64,000 nucleotides of DNA from positions 124,001-188,000 of the forward strand of contig NZ_QNRR01000012.1 of the NCBI RefSeq assembly GCF_003315205.1, written 5' to 3'. The notes under the pieces were generated by a model that was not told the origin of the DNA, ran no database searches, and worked only from the letters and a program-made list of their open reading frames with translations. The translations under genes and the position numbers were made by a program. Of this stretch, positions 10,566 to 30,633 are shown in pieces (the stretch's first letter is position 1; each line of letters begins with the position of its first letter). The stretch is from Roseimicrobium gellanilyticum. GTDB lineage: Bacteria; Verrucomicrobiota; Verrucomicrobiia; Verrucomicrobiales; Verrucomicrobiaceae.

Positions 10566-10740
10566 ACCGGGGTCAGAACCAACTTGCTGAGGGTGCATAA
10601 AACCCAGTGCAACTGCAAGCAAAATCTTTTTGTCTATGCGTCTTTCGACGTATGGCAGCTCGCTGCGTATTTGCGTAGATCCCCCCCATTCGCGATCTTG
10701 ATCGTCCACTTGAAAAAACGGCGCCCAACGAGCTCTGCAG

Positions 10741-11097
10741 ATGAAGTCCAACTCGAAACCTACTTTGTTTTTTCCTTCTCTTGTTGCCTGGCTATTGTTG
10801 CCTTCTTGCGAAGCGTGCGATCACGCTGACTCCTTTCAGCCCATCGAAACTCAGGCGTTGGATCAGTATGGCGGCCGACTTGATACTCCCTGCCGCTCCC
10901 TTCGGAGCACAGGTAGGATCTCCGATTTTTTCGCGCTCGCCGTATCCTGGCAGCTCGCCACCCGTGACAGGTTACACGCCCAGCAAACGCTTCGCAATAC
11001 GAGCACCGAAATCCAGGCACTGGGACATCACTCGTTTTCCTGCAAAAAGGACAAAGTGCGAAGGCCAAGGACCTCAAACCGAACCCGCAACCAATGA
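10741..11097 (+). CDS. possible lipoprotein, frame doubtful
   Basis: ATG at 10741 gives a convincing lipoprotein signal (KPTLFFPSLVAWLLLPSCEA, with Cys in LPSC). After about residue 45 this frame becomes Arg/Ser-rich and less protein-like, while the next frame reads a Pro/Tyr-rich stretch (RSPYPGSSPPVTGYTP) that vaguely recalls short exported Verrucomicrobial proteins with SPY and GYxPG motifs. The gene may therefore be frameshifted near 10880-10905, or may not exist. Low confidence. Confidence 0.3.
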   Translation: MKSNSKPTLFFPSLVAWLLLPSCEACDHADSFQPIETQALDQYGGRLDTPCRSLRSTGRISDFFALAVSWQLATRDRLHAQQTLRNTSTEIQALGHHSFSCKKDKVRRPRTSNRTRNQ

Positions 11098-11120
11098 GCA
11101 CGACATCAACATCAACCCAC

Positions 11121-11483
11121 ATGAAACTCAATCCTACACAGAACATCGCGATCACCCTGATGCTTTGCATAGCTATGCTGGTGACATCTCAAAAATCTCA
11201 AGCCGCGCCACGCCATCTCAACGCCGCCGAGAAGCATGACTACGCGGAACGAACAGAGACTTTGCCTGCAGGATTCGCGAACGAAGAAGGTGAGTTTACT
11301 GCTGAAGCACTGATGATCGTCTTGGTCGTGCTACTGGTCATTGGATGTTTATACGCAGGAAGCAACACAAGCACCTTCGAAAATCGCGCATCGGAAAACT
11401 TCAACCAGAATTTCGGAACGGGAGTCGGAACGGAGATGACCACCGAGGATATGCGTGGTTATAGCACACCCAGTTCGAATTGA
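11121..11483 (+). CDS. small exported/membrane hypothetical protein
   Basis: About 120 residues from ATG 11121 (MKLNPTQNIAITLMLCIAML), a typical signal peptide with cleavage probably after SQA. An in-frame ATG nine codons upstream gives a Thr/Ser-rich extension and is less likely. One transmembrane helix lies near residue 70 (ALMIVLVVLLVIGCLYAG), followed by a polar tail with Asn and Thr. No family recognised. It is followed by the C39-like peptidase gene, suggesting that the two may be processed or secreted together; that is conjecture. Confidence 0.5.
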   Translation: MKLNPTQNIAITLMLCIAMLVTSQKSQAAPRHLNAAEKHDYAERTETLPAGFANEEGEFTAEALMIVLVVLLVIGCLYAGSNTSTFENRASENFNQNFGTGVGTEMTTEDMRGYSTPSSN

Positions 11484-15343: not shown

Positions 15344-16839
15344 GCTTCAACGGAGCCACGCTCCTTCGAGCGTGGAGAGGGTGAGCTTTTTCGGACCCCT
15401 CCAGCTCGTGGACCACCAGCTTCAACGGAGCCACGCTCCTTCGAGCGTGGAGAGGGCGACATGGCGTGGGTGCTGGCCCGCGATGAAGAAACGCTTCAAC
15501 GGAGCCACGCTCCTTCGAGCGTGGAGAGCCTATTGTTTTCGATGCCCACTCACCTAAGCTACCCAGCTTCAACGGAGCCACGCTCCTTCGAGCGTGGAGA
15601 GCCAATCTCATCTGGCTGCTTCTCACAAAGCGCCCTCAGCTTCAACGGAGCCACGCTCCTTCGAGCGTGGAGAGTACACGGCGGTCGCCTGACTCACCGA
15701 CCCTCCATCGGGCTTCAACGGAGCCACGCTCCTTCGAGCGTGGAGAGGAAAAAATGGGTGGAGGTGGTTGCAGGCAGATGAAGGTGCTTCAACGGAGCCA
15801 CGCTCCTTCGAGCGTGGAGAGAGTCACATTGACATGAAAAACCCCGCTTCTGCAAGTACAGCTTCAACGGAGCCACGCTCCTTCGAGCGTGGAGAGCTCC
15901 AAGTGTCATGTCCAATTTCCGCGAATGCACGTCGCTTCAACGGAGCCACGCTCCTTCGAGCGTGGAGAGAGACTGGAAGGCACAGAACTGGAGTCATACC
16001 GACCCCGCTTCAACGGAGCCACGCTCCTTCGAGCGTGGAGAGCAAGCACCAGAGCGGCAAGGAACTGACCCACTCCGGCGCTTCAACGGAGCCACGCTCC
16101 TTCGAGCGTGGAGAGCGATCTGTTTCCAAGCCGACCAAAGGCGGAAGCGGTGGCTTCAACGGAGCCACGCTCCTTCGAGCGTGGAGAGTCATGATGTTTG
16201 TTTTGTTGAATGTGTCGTGAAAATGCTTCAACGGAGCCACGCTCCTTCGAGCGTGGAGAGAGAGCATGAGGGGGAAATGGTTCATCTGCCCGGCTAGCTT
16301 CAACGGAGCCACGCTCCTTCGAGCGTGGAGAGGCATCCGTTCGACATCAAGCCGGGCAGCACCCAGGCGCTTCAACGGAGCCACGCTCCTTCGAGCGTGG
16401 AGAGAAGGCGATTGACGCTATTTGCGAGGCCCTTGGGCTTGCTTCAACGGAGCCACGCTCCTTCGAGCGTGGAGAGCAGTACCAGGAGAAGAAGTCCGAC
16501 AAGGCACCCACGGCTTCAACGGAGCCACGCTCCTTCGAGCGTGGAGAGCCGGTCTTGGCGGTCCGGGTGGGAATGGTGGGAGTATGGCTTCAACGGAGCC
16601 ACGCTCCTTCGAGCGTGGAGAGAGTGCTGATGGTATTCCATGGTCGCGAAGAGCAGATGCTTCAACGGAGCCACGCTCCTTCGAGCGTGGAGAGGGAGTT
16701 GTTTTGAATATGAGCACTACACCGACAGAAGCTTCAACGGAGCCACGCTCCTTCGAGCGTGGAGAGATGGCGAACCCCTTAAGGCTGGGATTCGGGAGAG
16801 GAAGCTTCAACGGAGCCACGCTCCTTCGAGCGTGGAGAG
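15344..16839 (-). CRISPR. CRISPR array, 21 repeats and 20 spacers (type I-G)
   Basis: Twenty-one identical 36-nt repeats, starting GCTTCAAC and ending GAGCGTGGAGAG on the plus strand, are separated by 20 different spacers of 36-39 nt. The repeat contains an 8-bp stem (CCACGCTC with GAGCGTGG) around a CTTC loop. Read on the minus strand the repeat ends in GTTGAAGC, like the 3' handles of other class 1 repeats. The cas operon also reads leftward into the array, so I infer minus-strand transcription with the leader on the right (16840-17068). Spacers nearest the leader are mostly 36-37 nt, while the oldest reach 39. A decayed extra repeat lies at 15294-15303. All repeats are perfect, so the array looks recently maintained. 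Confidence 0.97.
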
Positions 16840-17068
16840 TCACCTCACCCCACCCGCTGTCCCTGAACGACGCTGCGAAGCCTTCGCGAGACGTCTGCGG
16901 AGGCAGCGGACAAAGAAAGGTGTAGAAATGCATATGCGGAACCTAACAGGTTGGGTATCAGCACGCGAGCGGGTGCCAGGGGTAAGCACGGCACCACACC
17001 GCTCGCGTGACTGATTTTGGATTGTCATCGAAATGTCAAAGATCACCCGGTCACCCCTGGCCGATGAT
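16840..17068 (-). promoter_or_regulatory. CRISPR leader with an inverted repeat
   Basis: A 229-bp non-coding stretch between cas2 and the leader-proximal repeat. It contains an inverted repeat at 16962-17009: arms CACGCGAGCGG and CCGCTCGCGTG match perfectly over 11 bp, extended by TGCC/GGCA after a bulge. This could be a site for adaptation proteins or an accessory DNA-bending factor, or a hairpin ending the cas2 transcript; no T tract follows on the minus strand. The array promoter should also lie here, but I cannot assign boxes. Confidence 0.6.
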
Positions 17069-17386
17069 TTACACCACATAGCAGGGGGCGTCAAAGCGCG
17101 CGTACGGCAGGCCCAGCGAAGCGATGACGCGGTCGCCCCGGCCACCCACGGGCCCAAGCGAGACAAATAGCACCTGATCCTCATCTTCCTTGATAAGAGC
17201 CTTCAGTTCCCGCTCCAGCTTCGTACGTTCACGAGGATTCAGATCGCACTCGAACACAGAATACTGCAGGTGGGTGCCATAGTTCCGGCACACCTTGAAC
17301 ACCTTCCTCAGGCGCTTGTCATTGGCAATGTCGTAGCACACCAGATACGTGATCCGTGTTGAGAAGGCTTGCCCTCGGGACGACAT
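17069..17386 (-). CDS. cas2: CRISPR-associated endonuclease Cas2
   Basis: 105 residues. The ferredoxin-like core starts with ITYLVCYDIANDKRLRKVF, the Cas2 signature with its conserved Asp, and continues with YGTHLQYSVFECDLNPRE. The C-terminal strand is DRVIASLGLPYARFD. Cas2 dimers bridge Cas1 dimers in the spacer-integration complex. It lies 22 bases after the cas4/cas1 gene and immediately before the leader, as expected for the adaptation end of the operon. The first twelve residues before ITYLV may be trimmed if a later start is used, but no better ATG is visible. Confidence 0.93.
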   Translation of the reverse strand: MSSRGQAFSTRITYLVCYDIANDKRLRKVFKVCRNYGTHLQYSVFECDLNPRERTKLERELKALIKEDEDQVLFVSLGPVGGRGDRVIASLGLPYARFDAPCYVV

Positions 17387-17408
17387 GGCTAGAGAAGTGC
17401 GAACATAC

Positions 17409-19169
17409 TCAACGGGTCACCATCGGCACATACTCCGGAATCTCACCCGTAAGATGCCGCGCCAGCAGACGAGATTGCAGTTCCAAAACCCGCCGGTAGC
17501 TCACACGATAGTCAAAAATTGGATGGGTGATGAGCGTGTTCATCCGCTGCTCATACGCTTGGAAGAAAATTTTCCTCCCCGCCGGCGTCAGATTCACCGC
17601 GTCCCCAGCGCGCACGAAATGGCGCGGCGTGATCATCCGGTTATTGAGCGCCGTCAGCACGGTGCTCTCCGCCACCAACGGGCGGAATTCCTCCATAAGA
17701 TCCAACGCCAGCGCAGGGCGGCCGAATCTCGGCTGATGATAGAAGCCCACATACGGATCAAACCCCACGGCATGCGCCGCAATCGTGCAGTCCTTCGCCA
17801 GCAGGCTGTATGCGAGTGAGAGCAGCGCATTCACCGGGTCCGTAGAGGGACGTCGGGAGCGCTTGGTGAAATCGAAGGCAAACTCCGGCTCCTTCTCCGG
17901 TTCCGGCTCGGCACTTCCCAGTCCTGGCAGCTCATCGTCATCACGCTCCACTTTGATCATCCCACCGAAGTGCTGGAAATACAGCGCCGCAGCAGCGCCC
18001 TCAATCCCAAGCAAAGCCTCAATACTACGCGCCGCGAGCGCATCCAGCGCCGCCTGTTTCAGCCTCAACAGCACCGCTGGCGCAGCCTCCACGTGCAGCC
18101 GCATCAACAGCGTGCGTTGATTGCGAATCTTCCCGTTCACGAACCGGCTCGCAAGCGCCAGGCACCGTCTTCCATCTTCCGCCGCTCGGAATTGCTCGAT
18201 GCGCGTGAGCACATTCTTCATCCCATGTCCCCGCGTCAGCCCGTAGAACCACCCCCCCATGGAGAAATAGGCAATCGGCACCTCCAGCTCGCACAGCATC
18301 TGCAACGCCTGCGTGGAGAGCTGAATATTGCCAAAGAGCGCCACATGCGTGACATCCCGCGCCCGCACCTCATCCAGCACGGCCTCGCCATCCTTCATTA
18401 CCAGCACCTCATTTTTGCGGCCCACACGTATACCTGGTGTATTCAGGTAAAGGGCACGCTCATCATCGCGCGCCGCGATAAGCCGGCGGATGAAAACCGT
18501 TTCGCCATTGTCCCGCCCGTTACTTTCAGCAAGATTCAAGGGCGCAGGCTCTGGACCACTCTGCACATCACGCGTTGCCAGCATGCGCGTCTCATCTGGA
18601 AGGCAAACAGGCGCCAGCGAGCAGCGCACGCATTTTGGTGACCCCACCAGGGGCGGCGGCAGGCTACCCAAAGCCGTGGCACGCGCCTGCTGGATGCGCT
18701 CTTGGATCCATTCCTCGATTTCTGGCGTCATTGGCAGACGCACCCTCTGCCGCGTGGCCCGGTAATAGATCACGCCTTCATCACAAGTGTAACCATTGTC
18801 CCTGAGGATGAGAATCTGCAGACCCAGCTGCATCTTGTCTGTATCCCACAGCTCATTGGCATCCGCACCCGGGCGCGGCGCCCCAGCCTTGTAGTCCACC
18901 GGCGTGACGGAGAGCGGTGCGACAGCCTCATCCCCATGGCTCGTGCTCACACCCATCGTCACCTCAATGAGGTCCATCTTCGCCACCACCCCCAATCGCT
19001 CTGAGCTCAGCATCGCCGAGCGTGAATGGATCGTCTCCGTCGTTGTTTCCGCCCCCACTCCCCCCATCTGCTGTCTGTCCATCATCCGCAAGGGGTGTAT
19101 CACCCACCTCCAGCGCACCGGGACGCTCACCGTCACTACCCACCTCCTCCTGCAACGCAAGTTCCGCAA
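17409..19169 (-). CDS. cas1: Cas4-Cas1 fusion, C-terminal part: end of Cas4 plus Cas1
   Basis: Real coding sequence in this frame begins near TIHSRSAMLSSERLGVVAKM. Before that the frame is Arg/Trp-rich shadow. It holds the second half of Cas4 (VTPVDYKAG, the RecB-type Asp and Lys; CVRCSLAPVCLPDE, three iron-sulfur Cys) and then all of Cas1. Cas1 active residues are visible in LGIEGAAAALYF (Glu), AAHAVGFDPYVGFYH (His) and ALALDLMEEFRP (acidic). Cas1 integrates spacers and Cas4 trims and selects prespacers. Type I-G systems typically carry this fusion. The N-terminal half of Cas4 is in another frame (18964-19596). Removing one G from the six-G tract at 19060-19065 joins the two into a 728-residue protein. 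Confidence 0.9.
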   Translation of the reverse strand: MRNLRCRRRWVVTVSVPVRWRWVIHPLRMMDRQQMGGVGAETTTETIHSRSAMLSSERLGVVAKMDLIEVTMGVSTSHGDEAVAPLSVTPVDYKAGAPRPGADANELWDTDKMQLGLQILILRDNGYTCDEGVIYYRATRQRVRLPMTPEIEEWIQERIQQARATALGSLPPPLVGSPKCVRCSLAPVCLPDETRMLATRDVQSGPEPAPLNLAESNGRDNGETVFIRRLIAARDDERALYLNTPGIRVGRKNEVLVMKDGEAVLDEVRARDVTHVALFGNIQLSTQALQMLCELEVPIAYFSMGGWFYGLTRGHGMKNVLTRIEQFRAAEDGRRCLALASRFVNGKIRNQRTLLMRLHVEAAPAVLLRLKQAALDALAARSIEALLGIEGAAAALYFQHFGGMIKVERDDDELPGLGSAEPEPEKEPEFAFDFTKRSRRPSTDPVNALLSLAYSLLAKDCTIAAHAVGFDPYVGFYHQPRFGRPALALDLMEEFRPLVAESTVLTALNNRMITPRHFVRAGDAVNLTPAGRKIFFQAYEQRMNTLITHPIFDYRVSYRRVLELQSRLLARHLTGEIPEYVPMVTR

Positions 19170-19596
19170 CCTCTTCCCCCTCCCCCTTCTTCTTGCGCTT
19201 CCCCTTCTTCACTTTGGGCAGTTCCCCCCTGCCCCGGTCTACCTTCTCATGAATCGCGCTTCCCCGTTCCGTGTCCGCATTCTCTACGAATACACCTTCA
19301 ACAAACTCGTAGTAAAACAGCCGCGGACAATACACGAACTCATTGAGCATGCGCGCCGGCATCGGCTCATCCAGGCGCGTCGCAGGGAAAGGCAACCGTT
19401 CACGACGCTCCGCCTCAGGAATCGTGTCACCACTCGCCTGGCGTCCTCCAGGGCCAGACTCCCCATCCGGGAAAAGCGGCAGCTCAGGATGATCCGCCGG
19501 CACCGGGAGCGGCTCATAGAGATAGTCCAACTCCCACCCCGGCGGTCGCCACGGGTAGAGAGCTCGCGCCGTGCGGATGTCGGGTAGCACATTCAT
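18964..19596 (-). CDS. cas4: Cas4-Cas1 fusion, N-terminal Cas4 part (frameshifted)
   Basis: This frame gives the expected N-terminus of the fusion: an extension, then ARMLNEFVYCPRLFYYEFV, with the first iron-sulfur Cys of Cas4, and ERGSAIHEKVDRGRGELP. A Lys/Glu- and Gly/Asp-rich insert (KKGKRKKKGEGEE, later GGSGGGNNDGDD) follows. After the G6 tract at 19060-19065 the natural continuation is in the neighbouring frame. Here the reading ends as GEDGPH and a stop. As written, this would make a 210-residue Cas4 fragment lacking the nuclease centre. I regard it as the 5' part of one gene, broken by mutation or by a sequencing indel. The start at 19596 has no strong ribosome site. Confidence 0.8.
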   Translation of the reverse strand: MNVLPDIRTARALYPWRPPGWELDYLYEPLPVPADHPELPLFPDGESGPGGRQASGDTIPEAERRERLPFPATRLDEPMPARMLNEFVYCPRLFYYEFVEGVFVENADTERGSAIHEKVDRGRGELPKVKKGKRKKKGEGEEVAELALQEEVGSDGERPGALEVGDTPLADDGQTADGGSGGGNNDGDDPFTLGDAELRAIGGGGEDGPH

Positions 19597-19727
19597 CTCT
19601 TCATCAACGTGAAGAATAACTTTGCCAGATACTCCGTTAGTCGTAAAGAGAAACCATCTTCACAAAGACGACCGCCCGCGCTAACCCCGGCGTCTCTTCA
19701 AGGTAGGAATAGGTGTCAGGAAGGCAG

Positions 19728-19747
19728 AAGGCTTCGCCAGAAGCCTT
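19728..19747 (-). terminator. hairpin after the pRiA4b-like gene
   Basis: A perfect 8-bp stem (AAGGCTTC / GAAGCCTT) with a 4-nt GCCA loop, 25 bases past the stop of the pRiA4b ORF3-like gene. On the minus strand it is followed by a pyrimidine-rich run but no true T tract. It may be a weak terminator, or an RNA processing site separating interference from adaptation genes. Confidence 0.4.
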
Positions 19748-19772
19748 GCTCAGTATCCGGAGTATCCACGCA

Positions 19773-20186
19773 TCATTCGTCATAGTCCGGATACTGCACC
19801 GGCGGCCTCCCACTCTTGGCCACCACCTTTCTGAAACGCCTCTTCCCCTTCGACTCCTTCACCGCTGTGCAGGTGATCAGAAAGAACCAATCGTCCCCGA
19901 AGTCGAAGTGGAAGACCATCTTCTTCCTGGAACGGAACACCGCCGACACCAGCGTCTCATGCACCCCCGCTTCCCCCTCCCCCTCTCCTATATCGGCGAA
20001 GAGAGTATAGCGCTCCTTGCTCGCATAGGGATTTTTCAGGTTGTTACAAAACTCAAACGCATGGTCGAGGTCAAACTTCACCGTCTTGATGATGAACTCC
20101 GCGAATTCATACAACGACCAATCCCCTCCCAGGACCAGTTCCGCTTTGAAGGTGTCGTATTGAAGGGTGAAGTGATGTTCGGTCAT
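19773..20186 (-). CDS. plasmid pRiA4b ORF-3-like family protein
   Basis: About 137 residues from ATG 20186 (MTEHHFTLQYD). The pattern HHFTLQYDTFKAELVLGGDWSLYEFAEFI, then FDLDHAFEF, and VFHFDFGDDWFFLITC is that of the pRiA4b ORF3 / IS1096 passenger family, small proteins of unknown function whose hallmark is the F-D-F/Y-G-D-x-W motif. It sits inside the cas operon, 33 bases after the large-subunit gene and 176 before cas4/cas1, on the same strand. This family is not a standard type I-G component. It may be a hitchhiker from a mobile element or an accessory factor. Confidence 0.7.
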   Translation of the reverse strand: MTEHHFTLQYDTFKAELVLGGDWSLYEFAEFIIKTVKFDLDHAFEFCNNLKNPYASKERYTLFADIGEGEGEAGVHETLVSAVFRSRKKMVFHFDFGDDWFFLITCTAVKESKGKRRFRKVVAKSGRPPVQYPDYDE

Positions 20187-20219
20187 GCAGAAGAGCCTCT
20201 GTACCGCCAACGACCTTTC

Positions 20220-21146
20220 CTAAATTGGCTTTGCTGGTGTAAAATTCCGATACTTGCCCAAAGTGATTCGTTGGCTGCGGAAGGCTGCGCAAATTCCGCG
20301 AGCGGAGAGTTCGGATGTAGAAGGCTCGGATTTTTGCAATTCGCTCAGGACCAGAGTTGACCTGACTGCATCCATTGACAGCCATCCAGTCCAGATGGGC
20401 CAAGTAACGAACGTATTGTTGCTCTTGTTCCCCTTGAATCCTACAGTCGCCAGACCTCCTCCAGCGGTAGGCACTGTTGGAAAGAGAGGAAGTGCAGCAA
20501 TTGCGAGTCTGTTTGCACCCCGGACTGTGCGAACAGGATCTTTAGAGGGTTCGTCCCATCGAAGGGCATAACGGCGGTCATCGGCATCGTCCCATCGCAT
20601 AATCGGGCTCGGATCACGATAGCGCCACGGGCCGTACAACGCCTCACGAAGGTGGTCAATGTTGGTTTCCTTTGCAAGTTCATTCATGAAGCTAAGGAAA
20701 TGCTGATGTCCAGCCCCACTCATGGTGCGGAAAGCGGTGTCTTCGATCATGCCCTCTTCATTGACAGCGCCATCGCTTCCGAACGCAGCTGCCATCTCAC
20801 TTCCAAATGAATCCTTCTGCTCCAAGAAGGATTCTGCCATCTCCCTTGAGAGGTTTCGAAAGATTGCTTGTGACACCTTCAAATCCTTCTCGAACGTGAT
20901 GACGCGATGTCCTTCAGCTGCGGAGAGATGCTCGTGAAGGCATGTGAGCAGCGCATCCGCATCCTGGATTCCAGGGGTTTGAAACACGGGACAATAGGAG
21001 CTACCTTGCGGAACCCATCGCATCCGGCTTGCCGCATACTCCGGTCTTCTGCCAAGAGTGAAAAAGGCTCCAAGTGACGCCATGAATCCCAGCAGACTCG
21101 ATGCTTGCAAGGCGAGGAGGGTATGTTCAGTGATGCGAGTGCTCAT
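20220..21146 (-). CDS. type I-G/I-U large-subunit-like protein
   Basis: 308 residues. The ATG overlaps the cas3 stop as ATGA, so the two are translationally coupled. The C-terminal half carries motifs I associate with type I-U/I-G loci: GPWRYRDPSPIMRWDDADDR, then YALRWDEPSKDPVRT, GANRLAIAALPLFPT, and a terminal KYRNFTPAKPI. The position, next to cas3 and before the adaptation genes, is that of the Csx17/Cas8-type subunit, which in a Cascade complex recognises the PAM and holds the target. It is much shorter than classical Csx17 (about 600-700 residues), so this is a short variant. No separate small subunit gene is seen. The role is from context; the family is recalled by pattern only. Confidence 0.7.
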   Translation of the reverse strand: MSTRITEHTLLALQASSLLGFMASLGAFFTLGRRPEYAASRMRWVPQGSSYCPVFQTPGIQDADALLTCLHEHLSAAEGHRVITFEKDLKVSQAIFRNLSREMAESFLEQKDSFGSEMAAAFGSDGAVNEEGMIEDTAFRTMSGAGHQHFLSFMNELAKETNIDHLREALYGPWRYRDPSPIMRWDDADDRRYALRWDEPSKDPVRTVRGANRLAIAALPLFPTVPTAGGGLATVGFKGNKSNNTFVTWPIWTGWLSMDAVRSTLVLSELQKSEPSTSELSARGICAAFRSQRITLGKYRNFTPAKPI

Positions 21147-24100
21147 GGCTCAGAGGCTAATTCTGGTGAGGCACTGGCGGTTTGGTCGGCAAGGCGAAGG
21201 ACCGCTTCGAGGAAAGCAAGGCCCCACCATCCGTAGTGACGGGTAAGTGCCCAGAAGCGTTCAGCGACGCCTGAGTCCAGCGCATGAGCAGGATCGGCGA
21301 GGCGTTCTTCAGTACCAAGGGTTAGACCGAAATCCTCAAGTTGAATCGCCGGTGGGTCTTCATCGGATACCACCGGGGCTAGGGGGCGGGCAAATCCATG
21401 ATGACTTGCAATGAGATGAAGTACCAGCGCAGCATGCAGGCTGCTCGGCGGCAGCACGTCTTTTGCCGCTGGTCGAGACACGAGCTGAACGGAGAGCATT
21501 TCGTGACGGAATCCCTTGGGAAGGCCAGCACGCTGGCGGGCCTGTTCCCTGCCCCAGGCCGAGTTGGGTATGGAGTCGGACTTCGCCAACAACGCAGGCA
21601 AAGCATACGCAGCGCTCACGGAACTTTGGATCAGCATTGCTTGAAAGCGTGGGTCTGCCTTGCCTAAATCGTGCAGTCTAGCCGCGTAGGTAATGGGCTC
21701 TTTTTGATCAACCAAGCCCAAGGCATCTGCATATTCCAGAGTCAACCCGGTCACCTGATTGGTGTGAGAAACAAGAGACTGCCTCTTTGACCCTTGAAGC
21801 AAGGGATCCCCATGGGCGTCGTCCGCAGGAAGAGCTTCAGCATCTGACTCGGATGGATTATAACCGAAAGCCCAAAGAACAATCCCAGAACCATCCGGGT
21901 AGGGTTCGGCCTTTAGTTTTCGGACGCTAGTGAGGAAATCGAGTCTCTTGGAAAGGGAGACGTTTTCACGAGTCGCCGCCGCGATCGCTTGGAGGCTCTC
22001 TCTGGCCTCCTGTGATTGCCATTCGAAGTCAGACTCTCTGACCCATTGCTTCAATTTTGCGGCGGGACTCTCACCTTCTCCCTGAGGCCACCAGGCGCTC
22101 GGATGCAGTCGAATCACTGCACGTCTGCGAATGCTCGCCTGGCCCTCTTCGGCCTGATCTATTGTGGCGGCGGTGGCCCAGGGGACGTGACCGATCTCAT
22201 GCCAGCCTTCATCAGTGGCTCGCAGCACAATGGTTTGTCCTGGTCGCAGATCAGAGGGTGATTCAAGGGGCTTGCTATCTTCACCCCGCCAAAGAAGGGC
22301 TTGCACCGCCTCTTCTGGGGCAACCTTACGGCCACCTCTAGCGTCTGCCTCATCCTTAGTCATTGACGGCGCGTCGCCGCTGGCATCGTTGAAGCTGCTC
22401 TTCCTTTCCAGCCACTGGCGCATCAGGTGCAGTGGCACAGGCAGGCATTCGATGATGGTAGGAACGCAGAGAGCAAGGGTTTCTGCCCACAGGTCCACGC
22501 GCTCAGGCAGGTCAGCACGCCAACAAACCTGCACCTCCGCCATGTCACGCTTGGGACCGTGCAGGAAAAGTGACACATCTGGCTCGACTGCGGGTGCGGG
22601 GTTCGTCTGTGCCCAACAGTCGAGATGGGCGGGCAACAGCACAGGAGCATTCTCACGAGGCGTGAGGAGAAGGGAGAAGGCGTTCTCATCCTCCTCGCGA
22701 GCCATCGTGACAGCCTCCGTCATGACATCGAGGCCAAAGTTAATGACGCCGTCATTGGCGCGATGCTCCAGCCACCGCCAGGTACGAGGAATGGCATTGC
22801 CGTAGATCGGATCTATAAGTGCGTTTTTGTCGAGTTTGCTTTCCTCGATACACTGGTCCTCGGGTACAACTACAACTCCTTCGGCGAGGATGTCTCTACC
22901 AGCACGGTTCAGCCGACCGAAGCGCTGTCTCAAGGCGTCGAGACTCGCGCACTCAGTCACGAGTGCATCGAAATCGAGATCCGCACCGACTTCGAGGCAC
23001 TGAGTGGAGACCACTATTTGCAATGGAGAAGTGGCACTGGATTGGACTCCGGTTTTGAGCAGCGACTGCAATGCCTGAGTGACTTGATCCCGGTCAAGAG
23101 GTCGCATCCTGCCGATCACGAGAGTAACTTGGGCGGAACTGTGCTTTTTGGTAAGCACTCTCTCGAGTTCTCGTGCCGTGGCGACTCGATTGACCATGAT
23201 CGCGATGGACCTTAGCGTTGGGTGCCTGGTAATGATGGCCGACGTTTCAGCCTCAAGAACTTTTACCAGTTCGTCGCCGGCATTCTTGCCCTTTGCTTTC
23301 GCCGCCCGAACGAGCCGCACAGGCTTGGCGGCATGAAGTCGCTTTTTGAGGAGAGGGTGCTCACGGTCTTTCCGGCCAAGCTCCAGCAAGGTAATCTTGT
23401 CACCTTTCGGCGGGGTGGCAGTCATCCCTACAGCAGAGAATGCCAGCCGCACTGTCTGGGCATCCCCGGACTGGTGGATACGGTAGCGCCTCACCCATCC
23501 AAGAGTTTGAAGAAAAGGCTGGCTGACATGTGCTTCATCGACCAGCAAAAGACTGTCCTGCGAAACCAGAGCGGCGTGGATTGGCCTCGCCTCATCACTC
23601 ACGCCGTAACCCCGGAACAAGAGTCGCGAACCTGCCTGGTCAACGGTACTGCACAAGATCATGGGCTGGAGAATGGACTGTGCCCAGGCTCGATCCCGAT
23701 AGATACCGCCTCGCAGTTCGCCACAGGTGAGAGCCTTTTCTCCACCGAGGCTCATCAAGGCATCTGCTATCCGCCGCAAGGTGGCGGATGCCTTCGCCAG
23801 TTCCTCTGGTGACTTGCGTTTGTCCGGCTCCTCTCCTGCCTCGCGCCGAGCCAGATATGTTTCAGGATCTGCGAGAGCGGGCTCCAAATGTCTTTTTGCC
23901 CGGTCAAAGGCTTCATCCACGATGATACGACGATTTACGATGAAGAATATGCGGCGCCCTACGGTACGTTCCGAAACAGGCCGGGAGGCCTGGACAGCAA
24001 GCGCGAATACTGCCGCATCCAAGCAGGCTGTCTTTCCGCTGCCTGTGGGGACGGTAACATAGTATTCGGGAGGCAGGCCCGCGCAAAGCTGGCCCGCAAA

Positions 24101-24190
24101 CTCTTCCTGCCATGGAAATGGCTCGTAACCCCATAGGGCTCGGAAGAACTCACCAAACGATTCAGGCGAAATGGATGGCAGGGAACTCAT
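21143..24190 (-). CDS. cas3: CRISPR-associated helicase-nuclease Cas3 (C-terminal HD)
   Basis: About 1015 residues. ATG at 24190 overlaps the csb2 stop (ATGA). The N-terminal superfamily 2 helicase has Walker A TVPTGSGKTA, DEAH in LLLVDEAHVS, motif III FSAVGMTATP, and motifs V-VI in VSTQCLEVGADLDFDALVTE and RQRFGRLNRAG. The HD nuclease is at the C-terminus, not the N-terminus: SHTNQVTGL, AARLHDLGKADPRFQ, GFRHEMLSV and IASHHGFARP supply the metal-binding His and Asp residues. This helicase-then-HD order is typical of type I-G/I-U. Cascade recruits Cas3 to unwind and degrade target DNA. All motifs appear intact. Confidence 0.95.
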   Translation of the reverse strand: MSSLPSISPESFGEFFRALWGYEPFPWQEEFAGQLCAGLPPEYYVTVPTGSGKTACLDAAVFALAVQASRPVSERTVGRRIFFIVNRRIIVDEAFDRAKRHLEPALADPETYLARREAGEEPDKRKSPEELAKASATLRRIADALMSLGGEKALTCGELRGGIYRDRAWAQSILQPMILCSTVDQAGSRLLFRGYGVSDEARPIHAALVSQDSLLLVDEAHVSQPFLQTLGWVRRYRIHQSGDAQTVRLAFSAVGMTATPPKGDKITLLELGRKDREHPLLKKRLHAAKPVRLVRAAKAKGKNAGDELVKVLEAETSAIITRHPTLRSIAIMVNRVATARELERVLTKKHSSAQVTLVIGRMRPLDRDQVTQALQSLLKTGVQSSATSPLQIVVSTQCLEVGADLDFDALVTECASLDALRQRFGRLNRAGRDILAEGVVVVPEDQCIEESKLDKNALIDPIYGNAIPRTWRWLEHRANDGVINFGLDVMTEAVTMAREEDENAFSLLLTPRENAPVLLPAHLDCWAQTNPAPAVEPDVSLFLHGPKRDMAEVQVCWRADLPERVDLWAETLALCVPTIIECLPVPLHLMRQWLERKSSFNDASGDAPSMTKDEADARGGRKVAPEEAVQALLWRGEDSKPLESPSDLRPGQTIVLRATDEGWHEIGHVPWATAATIDQAEEGQASIRRRAVIRLHPSAWWPQGEGESPAAKLKQWVRESDFEWQSQEARESLQAIAAATRENVSLSKRLDFLTSVRKLKAEPYPDGSGIVLWAFGYNPSESDAEALPADDAHGDPLLQGSKRQSLVSHTNQVTGLTLEYADALGLVDQKEPITYAARLHDLGKADPRFQAMLIQSSVSAAYALPALLAKSDSIPNSAWGREQARQRAGLPKGFRHEMLSVQLVSRPAAKDVLPPSSLHAALVLHLIASHHGFARPLAPVVSDEDPPAIQLEDFGLTLGTEERLADPAHALDSGVAERFWALTRHYGWWGLAFLEAVLRLADQTASASPELASEP

Positions 24191-25875
24191 GACGGTGGCA
24201 GACCAAGAGGCTTGCAAACGCCGTAACCGCGGTATCGACCTGCACCGATGAGGACGGGCCCCTCCACCTCACTATCAAAGTGCAGGAGCACGTGCACCTG
24301 TTGCCGCGAATTCCCTGTCTTGCTGCTCAGCCACGGCATTCCGTTGGGACCGGGCCGTGCTCGAGGAGCACCGCGATGCCATGATGTCCTGTCGAGGTCA
24401 ATAGATGCCGGACAAGGCAGACCGATATTGGCGCAACTGGTTCTGATTATTTCGGTAACCTCCCGCCGCCAAGCTTCACGCTCTTTAGGATCCGCAGGGT
24501 CGAACTTCGGATGGCGATCAAGAACCACCGGTGTGACGCTGGCCCAGATCGTTGACGCTTCAGTCCAAGTTTCGGAACAAAGGCTCAAGGGCCGGGAGCG
24601 TGGAGCGCGATCTTCACGTTGAAGTTTCCAAGTACCATGGCGGCCAAGTTTCAAAATGACATCCTTGTCCGCGCCATCTGCATCAAATAGTACACGTTTA
24701 AGTTGCCCAGCACGCTCCTTCGAACTCACGGCTTTTGGGAAAGCGAGTGCCATGCCGAGAACGTGCCCGTCTGCATATTCTCCGCCCACAAAAGCCAGCG
24801 GTAGAACAGCGAGATGTGGCGCGGCAGCAGGCTCGCCGTGCTCACGATGACCGGTGAACCAGGGTGGCGCGGTTTCACTTCCGGTGAGCAACGTGCCGCG
24901 CAAGGCTTCAACAAGCATGTTGGTGGACTCCAGGCCCAGCACCCGTCCGTCGAGCTTTGTTAGCACGAGGAGTTCAGGATCGAAGACAGATGAGGCACAA
25001 GGGAGGGCATCGTCTACTGGCGGTGTATAGGTCTGACTGGTGCCAACAGAGGGCAGACGGCGCACGGGCGCAGACAGTGTGGCTGCCCAGTCCTCGTTAA
25101 AGCGTTCTTTGAATGCTGCCTTGGCCGTTTTTTTGGCCGCTGCACCTGTCGCTGTCTGAATTTTTTGGGAGAGTTCAAAGAACGCGTCAATGTCACTAGC
25201 ATTGAATCGCTGGTCCAGATCTGCCAGAAAGCCTGGGGCGATGCTGCGCAGCTTCATTCCTCCTCGAGAACCTTTGGACGGCTCAGAGGGGAACAGTGCC
25301 ATCTGTGGCAGGGGAGATTGCTCCGCCACCCAAACTGAAGTCAGTGAAGAGGAATGGCCGATCCTGACGACCTTGGCGGCCAGTCTCTTGAAGGCTGGCT
25401 GCAACACTGGAGGCAGTTCGGCATTATTCCACACGAGATGAACACAGTTACGTTGGTTCTCGAGGCCGAGCCCCACCGCCGGGAAAGTGCGCTCCTGCCT
25501 GCTACGAAAGGCTGGCATCACACCCAAAGCATAGCGCATCTCAGAAGCCTTTACACTGGCGGGTCTTGAGGACAGTCCGGTGTCGTTCACCGGTACATAT
25601 ACTTTTACCACAGTGCGTCGATGCTCCTTGGGAACTTCGGAGTACGCCAATGCTGGGGCACTCTGCTCTTCCAGCCATTCAAGGCAGAGACGTTCCTCTG
25701 ACCACTCGGCAAAAGCCTCTCTGCCATCGTCGATGACAGGGTGCGTTTCATAGTGGGCCGCTACGAGTGCCATGAAGACACGCGCAGGGTGCGGCGGCCA
25801 TTCTGCCGTATCACGGGTATCTGCGGAGGTCATCACAGCCGTGCCAGTGAGGAACTCGATGCCTAGAGCGAACAT
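24187..25875 (-). CDS. csb2: Csb2 (GSU0054 family), Cas5-Cas6-like subunit
   Basis: 562 residues. The N-terminus (MFALGIEFLTGTAVMTS, then AEWPPHPARVFMALVAAH) is the GSU0054 signature, a RAMP fold corresponding to Cas5. The C-terminal RAMP ends VEGPVLIGAGRYRGYGVCKP, the glycine-rich loop of the Cas6-like half. In type I-G this protein probably both cuts the crRNA precursor and caps the crRNA handle; no separate cas6 is present in the window, which fits. A catalytic His is likely but I cannot assign it. The start is 11 bases after csb1; the stop overlaps the cas3 start. Confidence 0.92.
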   Translation of the reverse strand: MFALGIEFLTGTAVMTSADTRDTAEWPPHPARVFMALVAAHYETHPVIDDGREAFAEWSEERLCLEWLEEQSAPALAYSEVPKEHRRTVVKVYVPVNDTGLSSRPASVKASEMRYALGVMPAFRSRQERTFPAVGLGLENQRNCVHLVWNNAELPPVLQPAFKRLAAKVVRIGHSSSLTSVWVAEQSPLPQMALFPSEPSKGSRGGMKLRSIAPGFLADLDQRFNASDIDAFFELSQKIQTATGAAAKKTAKAAFKERFNEDWAATLSAPVRRLPSVGTSQTYTPPVDDALPCASSVFDPELLVLTKLDGRVLGLESTNMLVEALRGTLLTGSETAPPWFTGHREHGEPAAAPHLAVLPLAFVGGEYADGHVLGMALAFPKAVSSKERAGQLKRVLFDADGADKDVILKLGRHGTWKLQREDRAPRSRPLSLCSETWTEASTIWASVTPVVLDRHPKFDPADPKEREAWRREVTEIIRTSCANIGLPCPASIDLDRTSWHRGAPRARPGPNGMPWLSSKTGNSRQQVHVLLHFDSEVEGPVLIGAGRYRGYGVCKPLGLPPS

Positions 25876-25886
25876 GGGAAAAAGTA

Positions 25887-27080
25887 CTAGGTTCCGCTCG
25901 GCTCGGTAGTGCTGGCCGCGATCTCCTGAGAACGTTTAAGCAGAGCGATCAGATTTGGCGCTGGCTTCAGAGTGATCGGGTCGCCATGCCATTTCAGACC
26001 GAGCTTCTCTGCCTGACCCACGGCCTCGTTCAGAAGCGCGATGGCCACCTCAGAAGTGATGACATGTTTCTCAGGCTCCTGGCCAGGGGTTTTCAGCAAC
26101 TCCCATGTCAGTGGTCCAGTGGGCCAGAGCAGGCAGCGTGAGCGCAGGTCAAAACCACTCTCCGCGGCCAGGGCGGCCGAAGTCAGTGCGAGGGCCACAA
26201 GCACCGTCCGGGCGGCGGTATCGCGTTCCGCCGTCACTTTACCATCCACAGGGAAGCGAAGGCGTCGCAGAGCAGGAAGCGAGAGCACGATGATTTGATC
26301 GGCGTAATCGATGGTGGCTCCACCATTACTTATGTCAGGCGGGATATTGCCGTGGTTGACTTCTGATGGTGAAACCGCGCCCGGCGCCTTATCACTGGCG
26401 AGTTCATACGTACCGTCCTTCTTGATGACCTTGGCGGCCGCTCGCATACCCAAGGGATCGATCCTGCTGCTGGTCTTCTTCCCTACTTGGGCATTGACCC
26501 CAATGATTTCAGAGGTCAGCGCCCGCTGGAACTTGGCGCCCAAACCGCCTTTCGGCCCTGTGGAATCCCAAATCCCGAACACGAGAGCGGTGGGACAAAG
26601 TTGATAGAGCGGCGTAGCATTCTGAAGGCTTGCGGCATCAAGTTGCTTGCCTAGATCGCTTTTCCGAAAGGCAATACCCTCGTGAAGACTGTCACGAAGA
26701 ATCGCATCCGCGACCCGGTGAGGTGCCTCAAGACTCGTCACACGCCCGACCTCATCCAACAATCCCAGCCCTGTGAAGTCCACGCTAAGTACTGGCACTT
26801 TGATCTTGCCCGCATCCAAGGCCGCTTGAAGTGCCTCTTCCATCCGGTTTGCCTGGGCTTGAACAGAATCGAGGACAACGCAGGTTTTCGTCTGGGGATT
26901 CTTGCCATCAACATCAAAAATTTGACGCTGCTCAATGGCATAAACTGCTCCAGCGCAGGTAGGAGGGAAGACCTTATCTCCGACTCCACCAGCAGGCTGG
27001 AGTGTGACGCGACAACGGAAGGCAGCTGCGCTTGAATTGACAGCATCAGCCAAGTAGGTGAGAGGAAATTTTGAGGACAT
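25887..27080 (-). CDS. csb1: Csb1 (GSU0053 family), Cas7 backbone subunit
   Basis: 397 residues and the first gene of the cas operon. Family motifs include FPPTCAGAVYAIEQR, VVLDSVQAQANRMEEAL, LVFGIWDSTGPKGGLGAKF, and the basic LPALRRLRFP stretch. This is the type I-G/I-U Cas7 equivalent, which polymerises along the crRNA spacer. C-terminal to it the protein ends in TTEPSGT, short for the family but apparently complete. Operon order from here is csb1-csb2-cas3-large subunit, with overlapping stops and starts. Confidence 0.93.
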   Translation of the reverse strand: MSSKFPLTYLADAVNSSAAAFRCRVTLQPAGGVGDKVFPPTCAGAVYAIEQRQIFDVDGKNPQTKTCVVLDSVQAQANRMEEALQAALDAGKIKVPVLSVDFTGLGLLDEVGRVTSLEAPHRVADAILRDSLHEGIAFRKSDLGKQLDAASLQNATPLYQLCPTALVFGIWDSTGPKGGLGAKFQRALTSEIIGVNAQVGKKTSSRIDPLGMRAAAKVIKKDGTYELASDKAPGAVSPSEVNHGNIPPDISNGGATIDYADQIIVLSLPALRRLRFPVDGKVTAERDTAARTVLVALALTSAALAAESGFDLRSRCLLWPTGPLTWELLKTPGQEPEKHVITSEVAIALLNEAVGQAEKLGLKWHGDPITLKPAPNLIALLKRSQEIAASTTEPSGT

Positions 27081-27870: not shown

Positions 27871-28791
27871 ATGAACCAGTTCCGTTCCCGTTCCTCTGCC
27901 GCCACCTCGCGCCGCGTGGGGCGCACGCGACGCCCCATCCAACGCATCCTCCAGATCCACGGCCTGCTGATTGCGAAGCGCTTCCCGAACTGCAGCACAC
28001 TGGCCCGTGAGATTGAGGTGACGCCCAAGACGATTCAGAGAGACCTGAATTTCATGCGGGATGAGATGAGCCTCCCTCTGGAATATCACGAGCGTGAGCA
28101 CGGCTACTTCTACACAACGCCGGTGACCGAGTTTCCCCTGCTACAGCTCTCACGACGCGACATGCTGGCACTCTTCCTGGCGCGCCGGGCACTGGAGCCA
28201 CTCCACGGTACGCGGCTGGAGAAGCTCCTCGCGGAGAGTTTTGAGAAGATCGCGGAGGCGGCGACTGGGACGGTCTCCTTTCGCTGGACGGAACTCGATG
28301 CCGCCTTTTCCGTGAAGACCACCGGAGTAGTCGCCGCTGACCTGGAGTTCTTCAGCACGCTCCTGGACGCTGTGCTGGAGCGGCGAGAAGTGACCTTCGA
28401 CTACCTGAAGCTAGGTGCTACACGCCCTGAACAGCGGAAGGTACGGCCTTATCACATTGGCCGGGTGGAGCAGGGCTGGTACCTCACTGCTTATGATCTG
28501 GCTCGCCGTGCGGAGCGCACCTTCGCCCTCCCGCGCATGCGGCACCTCACCCTGCTCAAGACGCGGTTCGCCCCACCTGCAGACTTCGATGCAGCGAAGC
28601 ATCTCGCGGGAGGCTTCGGTGTCTGGTCGTATGAACTCGAAGGTCGCAAACAAGAAATGGTCAGGCTGCTTTTCACGGGATACGCGGCGCGTGTGGTGGC
28701 TGAAAGGCAATGGCACCCCAGCCAAGAGATCGTTGCCAAAAAGGATGGCAGCATTGAGTTCCGCCTGCAGGATCTGGCTGGGAAGAATTGA
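27871..28791 (+). CDS. WYL-domain transcriptional regulator (3' end frameshifted)
   Basis: As read, 306 residues. The N-terminal winged helix is RILQIHGLLIAKRFPNCSTL and EIEVTPKTIQRDLNFMRDE. The WYL core is EVTFDYLKLGATRPEQRKVRP, then YHIGRVEQGWYLTAYD. The frame stops after LQDLAGKN, but in another frame from 28782 the expected WYL C-terminus continues (EELTRWILSWGQHVQVMEP, then VELRERIQNEVQ) to a stop at 28938-28940. One extra base near GGG at 28780-28782 would restore a protein of about 356 residues. WYL regulators bind nucleic-acid or nucleotide ligands and often control defence genes. This one diverges from the small gene and cas operon and may repress or activate them. Confidence 0.85.
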   Translation: MNQFRSRSSAATSRRVGRTRRPIQRILQIHGLLIAKRFPNCSTLAREIEVTPKTIQRDLNFMRDEMSLPLEYHEREHGYFYTTPVTEFPLLQLSRRDMLALFLARRALEPLHGTRLEKLLAESFEKIAEAATGTVSFRWTELDAAFSVKTTGVVAADLEFFSTLLDAVLERREVTFDYLKLGATRPEQRKVRPYHIGRVEQGWYLTAYDLARRAERTFALPRMRHLTLLKTRFAPPADFDAAKHLAGGFGVWSYELEGRKQEMVRLLFTGYAARVVAERQWHPSQEIVAKKDGSIEFRLQDLAGKN

Positions 28792-29484: not shown

Positions 29485-30633
29485 CTACGGAAAATGCTCG
29501 ATTCGAACGTGCTTGTCCGCATATTTTTCGCCTTCGCTCTCGAGCCAAGGTGCAAGCTTGACGGAGCTCAATGCAAACTTGCATCCGCTGACCGCGCAAG
29601 CTCGGTCGATTTCATCAGTGGTCCATTCCGTATTGTAGCGGCAATACAAGAAATCACTTCCTACTGCCTCTTTGCCCGATAGATGTCCAAGTTCCGAGTC
29701 CAGCACACCTCCTTGGATACAACGTCCCCAGCTTCGCATTGTGAGGTCTTGCGCCAACGAGGTGGACTCTATGAGAGCCGCGGGAACATGATCCAAGAAT
29801 CGCAGTCTCCCCAGCCGCCCGCGTTCGAACGCACCAAGTTTGGCCCGGATCCTGCCAGTACCAACTGAAACAACCTGGATGTTATTCACCCCCTTCTTCC
29901 ACTGAAGCGGGAAACAGGGCAAGGTCGCCATGAGGTAGGATATGACACTCGGGTTGTTATGGGGGGTGATTCCACCGTCTACAAACTCCATCGTCTGGCC
30001 GGCCGCAACCGTCACACGTTCAGGTGGAAAAAACCAAGGGGCAGCCGTGCTAGCTCTCACAACTTGCCACAGGGGAATCTTGAGGTTTGAACTACCATCT
30101 TCCTGGAGCTTTGCAAACTTGCCTTCGGGATGATTCAGCAGCGGCCAGGCTGCCCCAGTCGACATGTTTCGCAACACTACCAGTAGCCACGTTTTTAACC
30201 GCCTTGTGCCGAATAGCGCTTGGCCCCCATTCGGCTCGACAAAATGCTTTTGAAGCATTTCTCTGAGGGGACCTCTCCTGTAAGCTGCTCCATGCAATTT
30301 CCACCATTGCGCCCGCGCAAATATGATGGGGAGAGACTCTTTGAACAATTTCAACATCTCCCCGACTGGCCAGCCATACGACAAGTAGGTGCCAATGATT
30401 GCGCCGACGCTCGTACCCGAGATGAGATGGAAGTGATCTGCCAGGACCATTGAATCCTTCCCGTGTTTCCTCCGTAAGAGTTCCTCCATCCTCAACAAGA
30501 TTCGCAGTGAGAAAACTCCTCGAACACCTCCCCCTTCAATGCTAAGGATGCGTTTCGGTCCAATGGAGGGCGCAGACAACATGCTTTCTTCAAGCCCTAA
30601 CTCTTGCCCTGTCGGAGGAAGTTGAGAAGACAT
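29485..30633 (-). CDS. patatin-like phospholipase
   Basis: 382 residues, no signal peptide. All patatin motifs are visible: oxyanion loop SIEGGGVRGVFSLRIL near residue 32, nucleophile Ser in ISGTSVGAIIGTYL near residue 75, and the catalytic Asp in EFVDGGITPHNNP near residue 220. The enzyme should cleave acyl chains from membrane lipids. Related cytoplasmic patatins act as abortive effectors (for example CapV in CBASS systems), and this one faces a divergent SLOG-domain gene only 122 bases away. No cyclase gene is seen in the window, so a CBASS assignment is not supported. A role in phage defence is inference from the neighbours. It could also be an ordinary lipase. Confidence 0.85.
   Translation of the reverse strand: MSSQLPPTGQELGLEESMLSAPSIGPKRILSIEGGGVRGVFSLRILLRMEELLRRKHGKDSMVLADHFHLISGTSVGAIIGTYLSYGWPVGEMLKLFKESLPIIFARAQWWKLHGAAYRRGPLREMLQKHFVEPNGGQALFGTRRLKTWLLVVLRNMSTGAAWPLLNHPEGKFAKLQEDGSSNLKIPLWQVVRASTAAPWFFPPERVTVAAGQTMEFVDGGITPHNNPSVISYLMATLPCFPLQWKKGVNNIQVVSVGTGRIRAKLGAFERGRLGRLRFLDHVPAALIESTSLAQDLTMRSWGRCIQGGVLDSELGHLSGKEAVGSDFLYCRYNTEWTTDEIDRACAVSGCKFALSSVKLAPWLESEGEKYADKHVRIEHFP

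Follow-up and report, generated by a model that had tools for sequence, protein, structure and literature searches.

The window analysed here is a stretch of 64,000 nucleotides (nt) from Roseimicrobium gellanilyticum (contig NZ_QNRR01000012.1, positions 124,001 to 188,000; the source genome comprises 7.93 Mb in 32 contigs). It carries a CRISPR-Cas locus that is very probably an ordinary type I-G (formerly I-U) locus of the kind with a short Cas8g, the large subunit. Judged by profile searches, the large subunit, a protein of 308 amino acids (aa), belongs over its full length to a known short Cas8g family, and the locus is an ordinary one except for a broken reading frame in its acquisition gene, cas4/cas1.

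Against the NCBIfam family NF049934 the 308-aa protein scores 256.4 bits (cut-off 65) over positions 1-299 of 299, and against the PADLOC Cas8g profile (PDLC01514) 287.6 bits over positions 2-286 of 287. Because these matches span the whole length, the short subunit is not an anomaly. NF049934 is the only NCBIfam family matched up to an expect value (E) of 1, and no Pfam family is matched up to the same value. The Csx17/Cas8g1 family (TIGR04113, 718 positions, cut-off 150 bits) has no match in the source genome. A truncated Csx17 was considered and rejected, since the match to the protein's own family is full length.

Scanning a collection of species genomes yielded 17 related loci, whose record labels include Verrucomicrobiota and its subgroups, Acidobacteria, Bacillota and Proteobacteria. 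The proteins of 15 of these (L024 and L033 were left out; L numbers are our labels for loci) and our own were aligned in 16 rows, two of them partial (alignment A1). All 16 match NF049934, the two partial ones included. The identity to the five nearest Verrucomicrobiota members is 59-63%, and the motif KYRNFTP near the C-terminus is invariant. The family has the same gene placement as the present locus, with cas8g directly after cas3 in the order csb1-csb2-cas3-cas8g, and we see no essential difference from it.

An earlier note on this DNA, made from the sequence alone, gave the length of 308 aa correctly, and it is below half that of Csx17, which measures 711-925 aa in seven long-type loci. 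The note regarded this shortness as unusual and named a profile search as the check that could refute it; the search finds a complete member of a known short family. The C-terminal motif that it saw is present and belongs to the protein's own family.

Predicted fold of the short Cas8g

In the predicted model of the 308-aa protein (predicted local distance difference test, pLDDT, 86.9; predicted template modelling score, pTM, 0.89), residues 7-308 align with residues 9-380 of 8b2x (Z 17.5, root-mean-square deviation, rmsd, 3.6 Å, 251 residues aligned). This structure is of the type I-G effector of Thioalkalivibrio sulfidiphilus (8ANE, 8B2X; PMC9638904). The next structural match, at Z 9.8, is 7tr6_C, a chain from a Cascade of type I-A (217 residues aligned with an rmsd of 5.8 Å). 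PMC9638904 distinguishes three parts in the Thioalkalivibrio Cas8g: residues 1-381, then the bridge at 382-479 and, at 480-720, a C-terminal domain that it calls Cas11-like. Since the alignment ends at residue 380 and these are the published limits, the short protein is, in the predicted model, a whole Cas8 head without the bridge and the Cas11-like tail.

The two effectors share Csb1/Cas7, Csb2, Cas8g, Cas3 and Cas4/1, and the predicted model suggests that the Cas8 head fold is common to both; the bridge and the Cas11-like domain described in PMC9638904 are absent from the 308-aa protein. Csx17 has an N-terminal domain akin to the 308-aa protein in fold and weakly in sequence: NF049934 is matched by three of the seven Csx17 proteins (best E 3e-7, profile positions 12-87). 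However, Csx17 is over twice as long, comes in another gene order and belongs to a separate group in the Csb2 tree (see below). The type I-G system of Bifidobacterium (PMC12915315) shares the subtype, the Cas4-Cas1 fusion, Csb1, Csb2 and Cas3; it is described there as functional and used for editing. Its third subunit goes by the name Csb3.

Large subunits of type I-G are reported to vary considerably in size, with three variants of which the Thioalkalivibrio one is the largest (PMC9638904). The suggestion in the earlier note of a minimal Cascade comes close to these published variants; a need for the partner protein that it considered is not supported. In the table of PMC11127173 type I-G is given no Cas11, and cas8u2 is named once each in PMC7284854 and PMC6079278. 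Our searches of the open-licence literature turned up no study of how the short subunit works. The short family and the size variants of type I-G are thus known, and what is added is the precise reading, from the predicted model, of the short form as a Cas8 head minus bridge and Cas11-like tail. This closes the question of the half-size subunit. How type I-G effectors work with and without a Cas11-like tail is a family-wide question, not particular to this locus.

Locus layout and CRISPR array

The features of the locus and its neighbourhood are as follows.

15344..16839, minus strand: CRISPR array, 21 identical 36-nt repeats and 20 spacers of 36-39 nt
16840..17068, minus strand: probable leader in the gap between cas2 and the array, placed by repeat orientation and position
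17069..17386, minus strand: cas2, 105 aa; TIGR01573 51.3 bits, Pfam PF09827 E 2.2e-24
17409..19169, minus strand: split cas4/cas1, second frame (remaining Cas4, then Cas1); NF049935 positions 54-546, 624.3 bits, Pfam Cas1 E 2.9e-86
18964..19596, minus strand: split cas4/cas1, first frame (Cas4 N-terminal part); NF049935 positions 2-60 in residues 79-137, 64 bits
19773..20210, minus strand: pRiA4b ORF-3-like gene, 145 aa, accessory, in a variable slot; Pfam PF07929 E 3.5e-8
20220..21146, minus strand: short cas8g, encoding the 308-aa large subunit of type I-G, a head domain alone by the predicted model; NF049934, PADLOC Cas8g, 8b2x alignment
21143..24190, minus strand: cas3 (Cas3g, helicase then HD), 1015 aa; TIGR02621 695.3 bits, positions 1-854 of 854
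24187..25875, minus strand: csb2 (Cas5-Cas6 fusion), 562 aa, subunit that processes CRISPR RNA (crRNA); TIGR02165 279.5 bits, positions 1-491 of 492
25887..27080, minus strand: csb1 (Cas7g), 397 aa, crRNA-backbone subunit; TIGR02570 73.9 bits, Pfam PF09617 E 2.2e-52
27871..28791, plus strand: divergent gene of a WYL-domain regulator; Pfam WYL E 3e-17, PADLOC CRISPR-associated WYL E 2.4e-36
29485-30633: patatin-like phospholipase gene; PADLOC phospholipase effectors E 2.1e-39, Pfam E 2.1e-24

The scores of Csb1/Cas7g, Csb2, Cas3g, Cas4g/Cas1g and Cas2 all exceed the curated NCBIfam cut-offs (38, 45, 400, 560 and 24.5 bits, respectively). The assignment to type I-G made in the earlier note is borne out: the csb2 that typifies the subtype (PMC9638904) is present, as are csb1/Cas7g and Cas3g, and the usual companion Cas4g/Cas1g is encoded, with profile positions 2-60 in a separate frame. 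The open reading frame (ORF) coordinates and translations contain both of the ATGA overlaps that it described, csb2/cas3 at 24187-24190 and cas3/cas8g at 21143-21146. The cas3 start taken here is the ATG overlapping the csb2 stop; the ORF is open further, from a TTG at 24217 (1024 aa). The gene order it gave holds for the named genes, all on the minus strand; the array lies outside 17069-27080, where the note had included it.

Read on the minus strand, the repeat forms an 8-bp stem closed by a GAAG loop, preceded by 4 nt and followed by a 12-nt tail (-15.2 kcal/mol). The plus-strand repeat is nearly as stable (-14.7 kcal/mol), and because both strands fold almost equally well the orientation of the array rests on the 3' tail and the gene direction. 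The type I-G repeats of Bifidobacterium, described in PMC7284854 as 36 nt long with 8-9 paired nt and a 12-nt 3' handle, are like ours in length, stem and 3' part. In Thioalkalivibrio the cut is made 4 nt after the stem (PMC9638904); by analogy, such a cut would give an 8-nt handle here.

The whole array has no match among 50,697 phage records, and in its own genome it finds itself and otherwise weak matches (best E 0.12). Parts of three of the 20 spacers have no exact match among viral contigs. With no target found in these searches, no protospacer adjacent motif (PAM) can be derived from the spacers.

Distribution, Cas3 length and module pairing

Within the phylum, NF049934 exceeds its cut-off in 10 of 387 genomes (our own included), Csx17 in seven and csb2 in 20. 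Loci were typed as short or long with profiles that were iterated on their own hits, and their bit scores are no independent evidence. L038 (genome G234) and L034 are one and the same contig, which was counted once. Two loci, L099 and L100, contain csb2 and match neither large-subunit family. The gene order is cas3-cas8g-csb1-csb2 in all seven long-type loci and csb1-csb2-cas3-cas8g in those related short-type loci that extend far enough to show it.

Of the 30 rows of the Csb2 tree, the 21 short-type ones form one group (support 96/96) and the seven long-type ones another (100/100). The Cas1 tree, built from the last 340 residues of 22 rows, interleaves the two labels with six label changes, at least four of which are forced by well-supported branches. 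The clustering of labels is no greater than in shuffled data (194 of 500 shuffles were as low). Two sister pairs join the types, the short L040 with the long L098 (100/100, same genus) and the short L039 with the long L097 (100/98, same family). This interleaving, set against the two clean groups of the Csb2 tree, therefore indicates that effector and adaptation modules have been re-paired within bacterial families and genera, as far as the two gene trees can tell. The modularity of effector and adaptation modules in CRISPR-Cas systems is generally known. In the Cas3 tree L024, a fragment with a very long branch, and L031 are out of place.

Two type I-G loci, L035 and L036, are nearly identical (end branches 0 to 0.037) and come from records that carry the labels Myxococcaceae and Planctomycetaceae, a case either of recent transfer or of a binning error.

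The short-type Cas3 has roughly 150 residues more between helicase and HD than the long-type one. The stretch from the helicase end to HD measures 348-427 aa in 16 short-type loci and 229-269 aa in the seven long-type loci. The comparison covers 16 of 23 short-type loci, as L021, L024, L025, L031, L032, L043 and L044 were left out beforehand (ORFs cut, split or of unsure start; in L031 a different cas3). It used the first possible start codons, so that the total lengths, which overlap, are upper bounds: 948-1106 aa (short-type) and 780-972 aa (long-type) for Cas3, and 391-472 aa and 312-419 aa for Csb1. In the present locus the extra stretch lies at 21857-22168, about residues 684-787 of the 1024-aa ORF. 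Because the Csb2 tree keeps the short and long types apart, the enlargement may be one event; its length shows no function.

The predicted model of Cas3 residues 440-830 is poor (mean pLDDT 60.2, pTM 0.55), with the extra stretch a mixture of helix and strand. A fold search with it gave two rows with Z of at least 2, CasDinG (4.0) and the DinG chain of a type IV-A effector (3.7); no row was a Cas11, which proves nothing.

Weighing the explanations

The analysis establishes the gene families, the full-length membership, the head-domain fold (in the predicted model), the array and the frame split in cas4/cas1; the biochemical steps are all inferred from what is published for Thioalkalivibrio and from what is generally known. 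Judged from the genes, a normal type I-G effector is most likely. By analogy, Csb2 would cut the precursor RNA near the repeat hairpin and several copies of Csb1 would coat the spacer. The 308-aa Cas8g, as a head alone, would cap the complex, tether Cas3 and aid target recognition, and Cas3 would then unwind and cut the DNA. The array would have been built by Cas4/Cas1 and Cas2; the frame change may since have compromised Cas4.

Several observations weigh against this reading. Foldseek alone finds nothing at E 0.001, its best match being 8ip0 (a type I-B Cascade) at E 3.9e-3, and the match to 8b2x comes from a second-look structural aligner. The published Cas8g map is of about 8 Å and was built from an AlphaFold2 starting model (PMC9638904). 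By sequence, the single 308-aa protein matches no solved chain at E 1, and the profile of alignment A1 gives two unrelated weak matches among the solved chains (E 0.46 and 0.95). For Csb1 and Csb2, sequence searches against the solved chains gave nothing at E 0.1, and for Cas3 four weak matches. Short and long Cas8g, compared profile to profile, align over only 74 columns (probability 33%). No spacer target was found, so activity is unproven, and with cas4/cas1 split over two frames normal acquisition may be blocked. Finally, the NCBIfam name of NF049934, "type I-G CRISPR-associated protein, Cas3-extension family", is cautious and does not contain "large subunit".

That name, together with the 4-nt overlap of the gene with cas3, would fit a 308-aa protein that is an accessory of Cas3, a detached Cas3 extension, in an effector without any Cas8. 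In Thioalkalivibrio Cas8g holds Cas3, so the two roles overlap (PMC9638904). We nevertheless consider a mere Cas3 accessory very improbable, given the end-to-end alignment with the Cas8 head followed by a type I-A Cascade chain, the sequence match to the Csx17 N-terminus in three of seven cases, and the PADLOC label, which is that of Cas8g, the effector large subunit. The pRiA4b-like protein has also been proposed, in the earlier note, as taking over part of the large-subunit role. Its gene follows cas8g directly and in the same direction, and in L039 (genome G375) a relative with 54% identity lies between cas8g and cas4/cas1. Such relatives are found beside cas4/cas1 in our locus, L039 and L096, that is in three of 35 loci, part of which end before cas4/cas1 (two of 26 short-type, one of seven long-type and none of two others). 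L096 is the long-type one and encodes a Csx17 of 711 aa. Elsewhere the same slot holds unrelated genes: Fic (L020), a Phd/PIN toxin-antitoxin pair (L034), DUF6429 (L023) and a HEAT-repeat protein (L043). By this distribution we reject pRiA4b as a general helper subunit, and it is hardly conceivable that it supplies the missing part of Cas8g here. From the lengths compared above, Cas3 is a better candidate for compensating the missing tail. Even so, it is unlikely that the Cas11-like function has moved, with the enlarged Cas3 stretch, perhaps together with a longer Csb1, supporting the R-loop; if true, Cas3 would be a structural part of the effector in short-type I-G from the outset.

The last alternative, which is compatible with an ordinary short-Cas8g locus, is that the locus is losing function, i.e. 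that cas4/cas1 is truly split, adaptation has ceased and the system works with its stored spacers alone. Here the Cas4 N-terminal part and the remainder lie in different frames. Of the related short-type loci, 15 yielded both halves, and in all 15 the halves share one frame; among these 15, L033 shows a gap in the second half, and its cas8g is itself split. An intact fusion is thus absent, and no second NF049935 match exists anywhere in the source genome. By eye, the frame change falls in a G-rich, variable linker inside Cas4. The split may reflect a genuine mutation or else an artefact of the draft assembly, in which a G-rich stretch can contain a wrong base. In type I-G it is the Cas4 part that cleaves new spacers at their PAM end (PMC10504553), so a genuine break should affect acquisition rather than interference. 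The effector genes are open, with profile matches of nearly full length, and the identity of all 21 repeats is contrary to long disuse. We therefore regard a decaying locus as a possibility to be kept in mind, though a doubtful one.

The slot between cas8g and cas4/cas1 was also inspected in L034 (10070-12189) and L020 (10077-11517), where the Phd/PIN or Fic genes are accompanied by a 225-aa protein. Neither copy has a Pfam match, and the L020 copy has no PADLOC match either; in L034 there is a similar partial ORF at 10728-11381. The Thioalkalivibrio locus has two toxin-antitoxin systems between csb2 and cas4-1 (PMC9638904).

Beside csb1 the WYL-domain gene diverges from the operon, and its product is a possible regulator of that operon. 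Matches by tblastn were found in five of the 28 loci searched: L034 (48%), L020 (42%, cut by the contig end), the long-type L094 (60%) and, weakly, L028 and L035. The patatin-like phospholipase gene is possibly a further defence gene beside the CRISPR locus.

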